From the NCBI RefSeq assembly GCF_024734665.1, contig NZ_CP102931.1:6384001-6448000 (forward strand): a stretch of DNA of 64,000 nucleotides, in the 5' to 3' direction. How positions within the stretch are numbered: position 1 is the first letter of the stretch; the number at the start of each line of letters is the position of its first letter. The stretch comes from Variovorax paradoxus (GTDB taxonomy: Bacteria > Pseudomonadota > Gammaproteobacteria > Burkholderiales > Burkholderiaceae_C). The notes under the pieces were generated by a model. It was not told the DNA's origin. It saw only the letters and a program-made list of their open reading frames with translations, and did not search any database. A program made the position numbers and the translations under genes. Of this stretch, positions 17,487 to 22,020 are shown piece after piece.

Positions 17487-17744
17487 ATGTCTGATCTCAA
17501 CGCCCAATTCGAAGCCGCCCAGGCCAACTCCAAGCTGCTCGCCGAGCGCCCCGACAACCCGACGCTGCTGAAGATCTACGGCCTCTTCAAGCAGGCGACC
17601 GAAGGCGACAACACCGCCAAGAAGCCCGGCTTCAGCGACATCGTCGCGCGCGCCAAGTGGGACGCGTGGACCGCCCAGAAGGGTGCGAGCGCCGACGAGG
17701 CCAAGCAGAAGTACATCGACCTGATCGAATCCCTGCGCGGCTGA
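17487..17744 (+). CDS. Acyl-CoA-binding protein (ACBP)
   Basis: 85 residues, the usual size of a stand-alone ACBP four-helix domain. Diagnostic segments are YGLFKQATEGD, where the tyrosine and lysine contact the CoA and acyl chain, and KWDAWTAQKG, followed by KQKYIDLIESL. It binds long-chain acyl-CoA esters in the cytoplasm, buffering or carrying them. It follows the TPR-like gene by 66 bases. ACBP is much rarer in bacteria than in eukaryotes and here sits close to thioesterase and phasin genes, consistent with a lipid-handling neighbourhood. Confidence 0.93.
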   Translation: MSDLNAQFEAAQANSKLLAERPDNPTLLKIYGLFKQATEGDNTAKKPGFSDIVARAKWDAWTAQKGASADEAKQKYIDLIESLRG

Positions 17745-17765
17745 TCGACCGCGCCTTCGCTCCAG

Positions 17766-18680
17766 TCAGGCCGGAAGCTTCGTATCGGCGTAGCGCCGGA
17801 TGGGCTGGACGAACGCGATGTCAACGCCATCGAGCACGTCACGCCCTTCGAGGCTTTCGAACTTGAGCCCGGTCTCCGCCTCGATGAACGCGAGCGGACG
17901 CTGCGATGTGTCGAAGTCTTCAAGGTCGCGCGCCACCCCCGAATCGAGATAGGTGCCCTGGCTCATCAGGTAGGCGATGGCGCTCAGCTCGCCCGTCGCC
18001 TCGCTGATGAAGGCAACCACCTTCCAGAAGTCCCGCGGGATCTGTATGCCGAATCTCTCCGGGTCGCCCGACCGGAGGATGGGGCCCGTGAAGACGCTGA
18101 TGCGCTTGTCGTCGCCCTGGGCATTGCCGAGGATGTAGTCCTCGAGGTCGCCCCACAGCCCATCGTTGAAAGGCTGCCATTGCGGGCAGGCGTTGGTGGC
18201 GAAGAATGTGTCGATGTTGGCCCGTTGCGCCGTCGCCAGCGAGCCCCAGTTCGGGTCCTGCCTGCGCGTCATGTGGCCGCGGGAGAATTTCTTGTCCTGC
18301 TCGGGGCCGTAGGCCTCCCGCAGCATCTGGTATTCCTTCCTGATGCGGCCGTCGTAGTTCCAGGTGTCATGGCGCGGAACGTTCTTCGACTTCGACCCGT
18401 CGATGTTGCACGCCGAGTAAAGCGGCACGCGCCGGGAAATGCATTGCACCGTGCTGAAGTGCTGGTACTTGAGCTCGAAGGAGCCGTCTTCGAGCTTTGC
18501 GATGTCGTCCATGGAGATGGCGTCGCCCATCGACGGCAGTTCCACACGATTGGTGTCCCCGAAGAACTCGGGTACGTAGCCTTCGCGGCCCCTGAAGAAC
18601 TCAGGCGGCTTCGGCGTTGCGGCAACACGCTGGATGCCAGCCCATGAATTGCTCACGACCTGGATGTCTGTATCGGACAT
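17766..18680 (-). CDS. DNA/RNA non-specific endonuclease (NUC1/EndoG-like)
   Basis: 304 residues from MSDTDIQVV, with AGGGAG upstream. The beta-beta-alpha-metal nuclease core reads FSRGHMTRR (R134, G135, H136), with H136 the expected general base, then ATNACPQWQPFNDGLWGDLE, with N163, N172 and E180 in positions of the family's metal-binding asparagine region. The usual DRGH has become SRGH. An N-terminal part of about 85 residues has no recognised domain and no signal peptide, so the enzyme is probably intracellular. It is the last gene of a three-gene unit after an S8 protease and a small protein. A nuclease kept in the cytoplasm implies restraint until activation. Confidence 0.88.
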   Translation of the reverse strand: MSDTDIQVVSNSWAGIQRVAATPKPPEFFRGREGYVPEFFGDTNRVELPSMGDAISMDDIAKLEDGSFELKYQHFSTVQCISRRVPLYSACNIDGSKSKNVPRHDTWNYDGRIRKEYQMLREAYGPEQDKKFSRGHMTRRQDPNWGSLATAQRANIDTFFATNACPQWQPFNDGLWGDLEDYILGNAQGDDKRISVFTGPILRSGDPERFGIQIPRDFWKVVAFISEATGELSAIAYLMSQGTYLDSGVARDLEDFDTSQRPLAFIEAETGLKFESLEGRDVLDGVDIAFVQPIRRYADTKLPA

Positions 18681-18735
18681 GAAGCTCCCTATCCAAAAAA
18701 CTCCATGACCACCAGCGGCCATGGGCGCCTTGCGG

Positions 18736-18987
18736 CTATTTCGCGAGCTTGGCGCGTGCGTTTTTCAGATTGAAGACAGGTTTGCGGATTTCCGCGAAGG
18801 TAGGCTGGGACACGGCCCATTCCGGGTTCTGTTCGAGCACCGCCAGTTGCTCCTCGTCGAGCTGGGCTTCCACCAGGGTGCTCGTCTTCGGCGTGAGCAC
18901 CGCGCCCGGCACGCTGCGACGCAGCCGTGCTTGCGCCGACAATTTCTTGCCGGGGCTGCCTGTGTAGGTCAACACGACGCTTGTCAC
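18736..18987 (-). CDS. Small protein between protease and nuclease genes, possible propeptide/inhibitor-like
   Basis: 83 residues with a GTG start that overlaps the protease stop (GTGA), so it is translationally coupled to the protease. The C-terminal half (VEAQLDEEQLAVLEQNPEWAV) has the alternating pattern of subtilase propeptide (I9) domains, where a short helix precedes a strand ending at the cleft; this likeness is weak and mine. A basic N-terminal part (GKKLSAQARLRRSVPG) precedes it. If the likeness holds, it would be a stand-alone inhibitor or substrate of the protease. The gene ends 55 bases before the nuclease start. No named family is recognised. Confidence 0.6.
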   Translation of the reverse strand: MTSVVLTYTGSPGKKLSAQARLRRSVPGAVLTPKTSTLVEAQLDEEQLAVLEQNPEWAVSQPTFAEIRKPVFNLKNARAKLAK

Positions 18988-20633
18988 TTCAGAACTCCAA
19001 AACCTTCATATTCGGCTGGCCAACCCACCTTTTGCGCTGTCTGAGACAGCATCTTGACGATGGCGTCGGCCTTTTCAGGACCGTCAGGCATGTTAAGCAG
19101 CTTCGAATTCCCTGACAACAGACGGGCCGCCATGCCCGAGGAGTACGGCGTGGCCATCGAGGTGCCGGACATCATTGCGTACTTTTCACCCGGAAACGTC
19201 GACAGCACCGCCACGCCGGGGCCGATGAAATCGGTCGAAAGCCCGTAGTTCGAGAACTCGGCGACAAACTCCTTCTTGCGGCGGATCTCGCTCTCCTGAA
19301 AGCTCTCGGGGCAGTCGGCCGGAAATGTTCCGTCGCGCCCCAGCGCGCCAACGGCCAGGGTGTGGCTGTAGCGGGCCGGATAGCGCAGCAGGGGCTGGCC
19401 GTCGTTGCCGGTGGCCGCGAACACCACGACGCCGGCATCGCGCGCCTTCTGGAGGATGTCCGGCATCTCCGGCATCGGCTCCAGGCTGCCCATGCTGATG
19501 TTCACGATGTTGCAGCCGTCGCTGATGGCGCGTTCGAGCGCGCTGGCAATGTCGGTCGATTTCGCGCGTCCACGCTCGCCGGTCTTCGGGCAGACGCGAT
19601 AGGCCAGCAGGCGGCAGGCCGGCGCCAGGCCATAGATGCCGGTGGCGGACGCCTTCTTGCCCGCGATGATGCCGGCGACGTGGGTCCCGTGCCCGATGCC
19701 GTTGTCGAGAAAATCCGCGGCATTCTCGCCAGTGACGAAACAGCCGCCGCCCGCCACGGCGATGTCCGCATGCGGCCCGACGCCGCTGTCGATCACGCCG
19801 ACCGTCACGCCCGCTCCGGCCTGGGGGTCGTATGGCGCGTAGTTCGCCAGCAGCTGGAAGCTGTCGGGCACCAGCGGCGTGGCTTGCACGTTCAATCGCT
19901 TCGGTGCCGCGACCCGGTCGAACCCCTTGATGAAGACCGACCAGTGCGTGTGTTCCGGCTCGACCAGGATCATTTCCACCCGCGGATAGAGCACCGGAAT
20001 TCCCAGGCTCGCGATTCCCTTGCTGTCGGTCACCGCGGGCACGTGCGCGCCGTCCCAATCCACGAGCGCCTTGACCCGGACGCCCGGCACGGGCTTGCCC
20101 TGCGGGTCCGCAAGATGCAGCTCGAAGCTCTTGACCTTGGCCCCCGGCGCAACCTGGATCGCGCTGGAATCCATCTCATCGCCCAGCGGCCGGATGTACT
20201 GGAGGTAAGCCCATGCGGCGGGTGCCACCCGCAGCCCCGGCGTGTTGCGGCGCATCGCCAGCAGGGCGGACGAGTTGGCCTGCATCACGGACACGTCGTC
20301 GAGCTGCTTGATGAGCTTCATCCGGGGAATGCCACGACCTTCCACTCTTTGGCCGAGCGCCTCCGCCGCGTTGCCGAGATTGATTGCGCTCAGCGTCGCC
20401 ATCTCTGCGCCGCCAGCCACGGCGCTCCTGGAGGGCCACACGATGACGTCGTCGGAGAACTTGGGCTCAGCAGCCATGCGGCGCAGACGCAGCTGCTGCA
20501 GCAGGTGCTCCACCTTCTCGCAGTCCAATTTCGACAAGTCCCATTTCGCAGTCCCGTAGACGCGTTCGGTTTCACGCGCAGGGGTGCTGCTGTTCCGCCT
20601 CGGGGCTTCCTGTCGCCTGTTCGCTGCTGCCAT
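18984..20633 (-). CDS. S8 family serine peptidase (subtilase) without signal peptide
   Basis: 549 residues. The catalytic triad is visible: D282 in VGVIDSGVG, H315 in GIGHGTHVAG and S492 in MSGTSMATP, with the oxyanion N410 in AATGNDG. Before the catalytic domain (about 270-549) lie a region of about 80 residues with propeptide-like character (IKQLDDVSVMQANSSALL) and a beta-sandwich-like segment (about 168-250, ELHLADPQGKPVPGVRVKAL) resembling carboxypeptidase regulatory or CNA-B domains. No signal peptide is seen, so it is likely cytoplasmic. The ATG has AGGAGAG upstream. It is the first gene of the S8-small protein-NUC1 unit. Confidence 0.9.
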   Translation of the reverse strand: MAAANRRQEAPRRNSSTPARETERVYGTAKWDLSKLDCEKVEHLLQQLRLRRMAAEPKFSDDVIVWPSRSAVAGGAEMATLSAINLGNAAEALGQRVEGRGIPRMKLIKQLDDVSVMQANSSALLAMRRNTPGLRVAPAAWAYLQYIRPLGDEMDSSAIQVAPGAKVKSFELHLADPQGKPVPGVRVKALVDWDGAHVPAVTDSKGIASLGIPVLYPRVEMILVEPEHTHWSVFIKGFDRVAAPKRLNVQATPLVPDSFQLLANYAPYDPQAGAGVTVGVIDSGVGPHADIAVAGGGCFVTGENAADFLDNGIGHGTHVAGIIAGKKASATGIYGLAPACRLLAYRVCPKTGERGRAKSTDIASALERAISDGCNIVNISMGSLEPMPEMPDILQKARDAGVVVFAATGNDGQPLLRYPARYSHTLAVGALGRDGTFPADCPESFQESEIRRKKEFVAEFSNYGLSTDFIGPGVAVLSTFPGEKYAMMSGTSMATPYSSGMAARLLSGNSKLLNMPDGPEKADAIVKMLSQTAQKVGWPAEYEGFGVLK

Positions 20634-20699
20634 GGACTCTCCTTGTTGCCCGGTTTATCGCACGGGGGCCATTGCAGGCCCATGAATGGCCCGTATCGG

Positions 20700-21938
20700 C
20701 TAGCCCACTATTCCGCGCTCGTGCAGCGCGGCGATCTGCTCGGCGCTCAGGCCGATTTCCTTCAGCACCGCATCGGTGTCCGCGCCCAGCGCCGGCGCGT
20801 TGTGCCGGTGGCTGGCCGGCGTGAGCGACAGCTTGGGCACGAAACCAGGCACCGCGAGCGCGCTGCCGTCAGCCATCTGCACCTGCTGCAGCATGCCGCG
20901 CGCGGCGTAGTGCGGATCGGCCGCGATGTCGGCGATGGTGTAGATCCGGCCGCCTGGCACATGCGCCGCGTCGAGCGCGGCCAGTACTTCGTCGACCGTG
21001 CGTTGCGCGGTCCAGTCGCCGATGGCGGCGTCAAGCATTTCGACCTGCGCCACGCGGCCCGTGTTGCCGGCCAATGAAGGATTCGCCGCGAGGTCGGGCC
21101 GGCCGATGCACGCCATGAGCCGGCGAAAGATGCTGTCGCCGTTGCCCGCGACGATCGCGTAGCCACCGTCCGAACATCGGTACGCATTGGTCGGCGCAAT
21201 GCCCGGCAGCGCGCTGCCGGCCGCCTCGCGCACCGCGCCGAATTCGCCGTACTCGGGCAGCAGGCTTTCCATGCAGTTGAAAACGGCCTCGTAGAGCGCC
21301 ACGTCGATCACCTGTCCGCGGCCCTTCGGATATTCGGCGCTCACCGTCGCATGCCGGTGCTGCATCGCCATCAGCACGCCGATCACGCCGTGCAGCGAGG
21401 CCAGCGTGTCGCCGATCGACACGCCCACGCGCACCGGCACGCGGCCCGGCTCGCCCGTAAGGTGGCGCAGCCCGCCCATGGCCTCGGCCACCACGCCGAA
21501 GCCGGGGCGGTCGCGGTACGGCCCGGTCTGGCCGTAGCCGCTGATGCGCAGCATCACGAGCGCGGGGTTGGCGGCCAGCAGCTCGTCGGGGCCGAGGCCC
21601 CAGCCTTCCATCGCGCCGGGGCGGAAGTTCTCGATCAGCACGTCGGCCTCGGCCGCGAGCTTGCGCACGACGGCCTGCGCCTCGGGTTCGCGCAGGTCCA
21701 GCGCCAGCGAGCGCTTGTTGCGCGACTGCACCTGCCACCAGACGGAGGTGCCGTCTTTCAGCAGCCGCCAGGTGCGCAGCGGATCGCCTCCGCCGGGCGG
21801 CTCGATCTTGATGACCTCGGCGCCGAAGTCGCCCAGCGTGCGCGCAGCAAAGGGCCCGGCGATGAGCTGCCCGAGCTCGATGACCTTGAGGCCGGCCAGC
21901 GGGCCCGCTGCCGGAGGGGAGGAGCTTGTTGTCGTCAT
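20700..21938 (-). CDS. CaiB/BaiF family CoA transferase (class III)
   Basis: 412 residues from MTTTSSSPP. Family features are LKVIELGQLIAGPFAARTLGDFGAEVIKIEPP, NKRSLALDLREPE, DVLIENFRPGAMEGWGLG, and the catalytic aspartate in VGVSIGDTLAS. Class III CoA transferases move CoA between carboxylic acids through an aspartyl-CoA anhydride in the cytoplasm. The donor and acceptor cannot be read from the sequence. The longer frame begins upstream without a good site and was rejected. The gene is divergent from the AraC regulator gene, 252 bases away, and convergent with nothing close, so AraC may also influence it. Confidence 0.9.
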   Translation of the reverse strand: MTTTSSSPPAAGPLAGLKVIELGQLIAGPFAARTLGDFGAEVIKIEPPGGGDPLRTWRLLKDGTSVWWQVQSRNKRSLALDLREPEAQAVVRKLAAEADVLIENFRPGAMEGWGLGPDELLAANPALVMLRISGYGQTGPYRDRPGFGVVAEAMGGLRHLTGEPGRVPVRVGVSIGDTLASLHGVIGVLMAMQHRHATVSAEYPKGRGQVIDVALYEAVFNCMESLLPEYGEFGAVREAAGSALPGIAPTNAYRCSDGGYAIVAGNGDSIFRRLMACIGRPDLAANPSLAGNTGRVAQVEMLDAAIGDWTAQRTVDEVLAALDAAHVPGGRIYTIADIAADPHYAARGMLQQVQMADGSALAVPGFVPKLSLTPASHRHNAPALGADTDAVLKEIGLSAEQIAALHERGIVG

Positions 21939-22020
21939 GACGCCAGAGTGTGCCCGGGCCTGACGGGGCGGGAAAACACCTATGAATTCTTGACTTCGCA
22001 AATCCGGCGCCTGCCGCGGT

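Follow-up and report, generated by a model that had tools for sequence, protein, structure and literature searches.

A three-gene unit of a subtilase, a small protein and a NucA-type nuclease in Variovorax paradoxus and its relatives

Nucleases that are licensed by a protease are an emerging theme in bacterial immunity and programmed death: such licensing has been shown for metallo-beta-lactamase nucleases acting with trypsin or caspase and has been suggested for the combination of NucA and trypsin. Kaur et al. (2020, eLife, PMC7159879) describe NucA nucleases coupled to trypsin and in some cases to S8 peptidase domains, mostly in alphaproteobacteria, and suggest that the nuclease is deployed through proteolytic events in a cascade. 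Tuck et al. (2025, Science, PMC12799240) report a protease that activates a co-encoded nuclease, made as a pro-nuclease; in the caspase system Canu (canABC) of the same paper canA has an Ig-like fold, CanB forms a complex with the protease and CanC is the pro-nuclease. In the malaria parasite SUB1-ProM is a stand-alone propeptide-like protein encoded beside subtilase genes and a proven subtilase inhibitor (PMC6993865). Here we analyze a three-gene unit in a stretch of 64,000 nucleotides from Variovorax paradoxus (assembly GCF_024734665.1, contig NZ_CP102931.1, positions 6,384,001 to 6,448,000; hereafter the window). An S8 subtilase, an 83-residue protein and an Endonuclease_NS nuclease are encoded there by three open reading frames (ORFs), all on the minus strand.

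As in System 3 of Kaur et al., a NucA-type Endonuclease_NS is combined with a serine peptidase, and the Trypsin_2-Endonuclease_NS fusions found among the relatives of the nuclease share the architecture of that system. System 3 has trypsin, EAD and STAND parts, whereas the trio lacks these and instead has a separate S8 gene and a gene for a propeptide-like protein of about 80 residues; a trypsin-like peptidase is absent from the three proteins. A small protein is not mentioned in the NucA section of that paper (PMC7159879). The first-pass annotation of this DNA knew of no description of this exact three-gene module. The coupling of NucA to trypsin and in some cases to S8 is already part of Kaur et al. 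A unit of S8, small protein and Endonuclease_NS was not described among the matches listed from open PMC titles and beginnings of abstracts, subscription papers and supplements being outside this scope. The pairs of Tuck et al. and Canu (PMC12799240) differ in their components, with a metallo-beta-lactamase-fold nuclease and trypsin or caspase as against Endonuclease_NS and S8 here. Canu is alike in plan: its A-B-C order corresponds to a protease with a beta domain, a small protein and a nuclease. In the CARD-NLR-like system LypABC (PMC13236601) the trypsin-endonuclease layout of LypC resembles the fused relatives of the trio nuclease, and unlike the trio this system has CARD-trypsin-ATPase and NLR-like partners. 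The abstract on SUB1-ProM (PMC6993865) names no nuclease, and in sequence searches the small protein from bacteria hit no family of propeptides.

Among catalogued anti-phage systems IetAS contains an S8 domain (IetS), and the protease matches its model PDLC02197 weakly (1.5e-8); IetS differs from it in length and architecture, and the NCBIfam IetS model reaches 27.8 bits on the protease against a cut-off of 900. IetAS also has a partner ATPase, and such an ATPase is not among the genes of the module. With PADLOC no defined anti-phage system was matched: the protease hit only ‘subtilase’ PDLC03014 and the weak IetS models, and no model for the nuclease or the small protein was found at 0.1. NCBIfam gave matches below the cut-off only, and for the protease only. 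We consider the trio related to the published NucA-peptidase conflict systems, as a unit of the same kind with S8 and a small protein in place of trypsin.

The protease is a member of the S8 family (PF00082, E = 9.6e-39; 133.8 bits against a curated cut-off of 21.8), and its residues D282, H315, N410 and S492 are invariant in all 36 aligned proteases. By the roles that we take to hold throughout the family, D282, H315 and S492 form the triad and N410 is the oxyanion residue. The nuclease is placed in Endonuclease_NS with equal clarity (PF01223, E = 6.8e-41; 140.8 bits against a cut-off of 23): R134-G135-H136, N172, W176 and E180 (numbering of the 304-residue protein) are invariant in 19 of 19 aligned nucleases, N172 and E180 presumably being the metal site as in other members. 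Protease and small protein genes overlap by 4 nucleotides at the junction AAG TGA, GTG ACA. In a crude hydrophobicity scan the three window proteins scored 0.48, 0.75 and -0.15 against 1.86 for a periplasmic control, and no stretch resembling a signal peptide was present; one protease among the relatives (L019) scored 1.8 as an exception. The first-pass annotation had described precisely these features, namely the trio, a complete triad, a GTG start overlapping the protease stop, an intact RGH core and the lack of signal peptides. All of them were borne out, with N410 intact as well, and its coordinates are right, including 17766-18722 for the nuclease ORF (Table 1). The nuclease itself most likely starts at 18680 and the ORF of 318 residues uses an upstream ATG, since 304 residues is the length of 24 of the first 25 homologues among the matches listed and GGATAGGGAG precedes the ATG at 18680. 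Ahead of the core the nuclease has an N-terminal extension of up to 67 residues.

Table 1. Positions in the window of the three genes, their domains, the flanking genes and the insert
Feature	Position	Strand	Basis or remark
Endonuclease_NS (NUC1/NucA) nuclease, 304 residues	17766..18680	-	PF01223; ORF reaches 18722
Nuclease core domain	17853..18479	-	PF01223 positions 17-218; alignment A1
Small protein, 83 residues, propeptide-like model, GTG start	18736..18987	-	AlphaFold2
S8 (subtilase) serine protease, 549 residues	18984..20633	-	PF00082
Protease catalytic domain, residues 273-540	19014..19817	-	Pfam and alignment
Protease D282	19788-19790	-	within catalytic domain
Protease H315	19689-19691	-	within catalytic domain
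Protease S492	19158-19160	-	within catalytic domain
Protease residues 167-250, all-beta domain, weakly Big_1 / carboxypeptidase-regulatory-like	19884..20135	-	Pfam and AlphaFold2
Protease residues 61-139, predicted beta-alpha-beta-beta-alpha-beta domain	20217..20453	-	AlphaFold2
Maximal insert missing from empty site in related Variovorax	17756..20696		flanks joined in 20 of 30
ACBP gene, flanking, outside module	17487..17744	+	PF00887, E = 1.2e-27
CoA-transferase family III gene, flanking, outside module	20700..22001	-	PF02515, E = 4.3e-123

The closest named relatives are from Variovorax. To survey gene order we started from the nuclease and compared alignment A1 with a collection of 84,980 species genomes; 70 stretches matched, of which 52 encode a relative. 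In 34 of these 52, from alpha- and betaproteobacteria, a gene for an S8 protease of the same family is located directly upstream on the same strand, and all 34 contain an ORF of about 80 codons between S8 and nuclease (in L028 and L029 by translation). S8 is split over two frames in L020 and shorter (452 residues) in L028. The first-pass annotation had made its case depend on the order S8-small-nuclease being conserved outside this strain, and it is. Ten of the 34 loci belong to Variovorax and one Burkholderiales metagenome-assembled genome (MAG), 8 to Bordetella, Achromobacter, Schauerella, Leptothrix, a Vitreoscilla MAG and Paracidovorax, and 16 to Paracoccus, Cereibacter, Rhodobacter, Ensifer, a Caulobacterales MAG and a Rhodobacteraceae bacterium: the carriers are scattered soil and plant-associated bacteria. 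A further 14 of the 52 relatives are Trypsin_2-Endonuclease_NS fusions by Pfam scan, and the remaining four comprise two Glomeribacter contigs of 3-4 kb, an orphan nuclease of Skermanella and one fragment. Thus 48 of the 52 loci link the nuclease family physically to a serine protease. Given one S8 gene and two Endonuclease_NS genes in the whole 7.29-Mb genome and the recurrence of the order in 34 of 52 loci, the trio is more than a chance arrangement. In L005 a match of 39 residues (49% identity, E = 3.8e-4) was accompanied by no S8 or nuclease hit, and the locus was excluded from the counts as fortuitous. The Schauerella protease frame looks broken (L020, 5979-7503). The second Endonuclease_NS gene of the genome (L002, G000:C1:2919484-2920143) lies in a separate locus at 2.92 Mb and encodes a Trypsin_2-Endonuclease_NS fusion of 751 residues, the architecture of the published NucA-trypsin system.

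We found that the small protein tracks the S8 protease rather than the nuclease. Profile searches detected it in every one of the 34 S8-adjacent loci and also in L102, a plasmid locus; the 18 collection loci without S8 gave no match at E up to 1, although a very divergent copy could be missed. Many of the positives are in the search profile by construction, so that the absence from the 18 loci is the informative part. A second survey starting from the small protein yielded 36 loci: Variovorax contributed 13 (of 101 genomes), the family to which L021 (Achromobacter) belongs 5 (of 250 genomes) and the genus of L039, Paracoccus, 18 (of 125 genomes). All 36 loci have S8 upstream, and 30 have the nuclease downstream. 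Of the 36, 24 coincide in their DNA with loci of the first survey, and the 12 new ones all have S8. The pair is kept without the nuclease in six Paracoccus loci, which speaks for the small protein as the protease's partner. These six are located in what look like four different neighbourhoods. A class-wide search with alignment A5 gave 0 of 369 genomes including that of the window; evidently A5 fails to reach the Variovorax group, and little can be concluded from the result. Phage records contained one weak match in 50,697.

The AlphaFold2 model of the small protein (predicted local distance difference test, pLDDT, 77) has the order beta-alpha-beta-beta-alpha-beta, as in subtilase propeptides. 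In Foldseek prosubtilisin 3cnq_P was matched with a probability of 1.00 and template modelling (TM) scores of 0.63/0.71, the highest TM among the 50 matches listed. At the sequence level no propeptide or I9 family was detected at E up to 1 in the window protein or in 18 relatives, and profile searches of the PDB with the small-protein alignments returned no propeptide (two chance-level P450 rows with A4, none with A5). The vague likeness to a propeptide noted at first pass thus extends to the predicted fold and not to the sequence. Two groups of small proteins match each other by profile (probability 79, E = 1.6e-5 in a single comparison, 70 columns); eight profile comparisons of these groups with protease segments gave E values of 0.032-0.71. 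An apparent fusion of small protein and protease in L113 was rejected, its long open frame being an alternative reading frame under the protease.

The protease model contains a domain of the same order near the N-terminus (strands at 62-66, 105-111, 114-119 and 135-138, helices at 76-85 and 121-130), and residues 61-139 are probably a built-in propeptide. Foldseek aligned the model with pro-subtilisin E (3whi) over 500 columns at a root-mean-square deviation of 13.9, and the domain arrangement hence differs from that of pro-subtilisin E. Residues 167-250 match Big_1 (0.0018) and CarboxypepD_reg (0.019) below the Pfam cut-offs and are modelled as strands only.

Next to its conserved order the module shows a patchy occurrence. 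All 101 Variovorax genomes contain the CoA-transferase side of the locus. Among the best 30 of the 101 loci, which were examined, 9 carry the module at this site, 20 lack it, and one was not judgeable. In the 20 empty sites the ACBP and CoA-transferase genes are directly joined, the aligned ends being -1 to 209 bp apart, which indicates a clean insertion. In the cleanest case (L083) window position 17755 is joined to 20697. According to contig position the module is located elsewhere in three of 13 Variovorax carriers: in G301 (L008) the empty site is also seen, in G365 module and site are 2.4 Mb apart on one contig, and in G285 (L007) the module is on another contig of a draft genome. The alignment of L007 and L008 to the window is limited to the module save for one short match of 69%. 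The trio may well be an autonomous, horizontally moving cassette. Two of the 13 Variovorax copies have frames that look broken, the nuclease in L058 (1766-3167) and the protease in L067 (3-1504).

For the relationship between S8-linked and trypsin-fused nucleases we used a tree of 61 nucleases, with a midpoint root, some long branches and fragment L057 left out. The 35 S8-linked and four orphan nucleases form one clade (98/98) beside a clade of trypsin fusions; a locus from an Agrobacterium plasmid that encodes S8, the small protein and a trypsin-nuclease fusion falls in the latter. The label ‘trypsin’ was assigned by Pfam scan for 14 collection loci, L002 and L102, and by protein length (598-685 residues) for L100, L101, L103, L104 and L106. 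The S8 label alone requires three changes on the tree, as expected with loss inside the clade. In view of the midpoint root and the long branches a direction from trypsin to S8 is a reading of the tree and not a result. A nuclease match was present in 84 plasmid records. Eight of these were inspected, and four of the eight have conflict-type neighbours: CHAT, EAD5-trypsin, SIR2-pYEATS and AAA ATPases (by Pfam, CHAT as annotated). On the Agrobacterium Ti plasmid (L102, 972-4894) S8, small protein and trypsin/nuclease fusion form a row that adjoins a divergent CHAT-domain gene. A conjugative plasmid of Polaromonas (L105, 1-4789) carries in a row an AAA-domain gene annotated ‘serine protease’, an AAA_16/NPHP3 ATPase and Endonuclease_NS.

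With moderate confidence we interpret the trio as an intracellular subtilase with a propeptide-like inhibitor acting in trans that controls a NUC1 nuclease, carried in a mobile cassette; we infer the inhibition, the activation of the nuclease, a trigger and a role in defence. The small protein would bind and restrain (or chaperone) the subtilase in trans and would keep it silent. A stress trigger, perhaps the entry of a phage or plasmid, would remove or consume the small protein, and the freed protease could license the nuclease, e.g. by clipping its N-terminal extension. The licensed nuclease, the usual downstream effector, would then destroy the nucleic acid of the cell. The module suggests that the logic of protease-licensed nucleases was assembled anew from a subtilase and a propeptide-like brake acting in trans, and S8 and small protein offer a natural bacterial pair for studying a separately encoded propeptide-like protein.

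A number of observations weigh against this interpretation. The link of protease and nuclease is not obligatory: S8 and small protein occur without an adjacent nuclease in 6 of 36 loci, all from Paracoccus (L130, L132, L133, L134, L135, L136), and the nuclease is present in only 6 of the 12 loci new to the second survey. A tblastn search of wider stretches (8-11.5 kb) around the six Paracoccus loci detected no nuclease; four of the genomes lack any nuclease relative and two have distant copies in long frames elsewhere. Since the protease seems to carry a propeptide of its own, the presence of another calls for an explanation, and the small protein showed no detectable sequence similarity to this N-terminal domain. 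It has no Foldseek match at E 0.001 and no Pfam match above cut-off (best E 0.12), the latter being true of 18 relatives as well. Its predicted fold is common and the match to propeptides is not exclusive, with unrelated proteins ranking as high or higher: VIA ranks Mesd at 7.8 and subtilase propeptides at 7.2-7.3. The other four inspected plasmid relatives have no annotated conflict-type partner. We scanned 71 neighbouring proteins from 18 loci (out of 160 listed from 20 loci), and their Pfam families are mainly metabolic or transport (25 of 72 families listed). Proximity to defence islands, which had been named as a point to check at first pass, was not seen around the trio in these metabolic-looking neighbourhoods. 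ORF clustering of 52 loci revealed no shared fourth gene beyond the module and genus-level synteny; this clustering is rough, as greedy ORF choice in high-GC DNA took many antisense frames. As a caution, the endonuclease residues of LypABC are dispensable for lysis (PMC13236601).

A more specific version, which we regard as rather unlikely, is a three-gene death switch without a sensor that replaced the trypsin-fused version in one lineage: the small protein would be both sensor and lock of the subtilase, and the subtilase would unlock the NUC1 nuclease. If short-lived, the small protein would be lost when a phage shuts off translation. Somewhat less probable is a general intracellular turnover or stress unit, in which subtilase, folding helper and nuclease recycle protein and nucleic acid and have no role in conflict. 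The housekeeping-like neighbours and the lack of a conserved sensor agree with such a unit, as do the ability of S8 and small protein to stand alone and the existence of intracellular subtilisins (7y6m and 2xrm are among the structural matches of the protease), but its occurrence is patchy (13/101 Variovorax, 18/125 Paracoccus, 5/250 and 1/295 genomes from two families), its insertion is cassette-like, and half of the inspected plasmid relatives have conflict-type partners. We think it improbable that the small protein inhibits the nuclease in the manner of an immunity protein, like NuiA with NucA, and is degraded by the protease in order to free the nuclease. Its gene does lie between protease and nuclease in three-gene loci, and the closest solved relatives by sequence are ‘Nuclease’ in 2o3b, which we take to be the NucA-NuiA inhibitor complex, and 1zm8; however, the small protein is missing from all 18 nuclease loci without S8 and accompanies S8 without the nuclease in six loci. 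It is highly improbable that protease and nuclease are exported into rivals, e.g. through a type VI apparatus, and that the small protein confers immunity: the small partner adjoins the protease and nuclease and protease effectors without signal peptides exist, but Pfam shows no delivery domain in the three proteins and no VgrG, PAAR, Rhs or type VI secretion adaptor among the 25 of 72 families listed for the 71 neighbours.

Returning to these 71 neighbours, PADLOC at 1e-10 matched five models with one protein each, two of them components of MADS. A neighbour of the Ensifer copy (L036, 1812-2942) matches the PADLOC candidate PDC-S68 at 9.6e-11.

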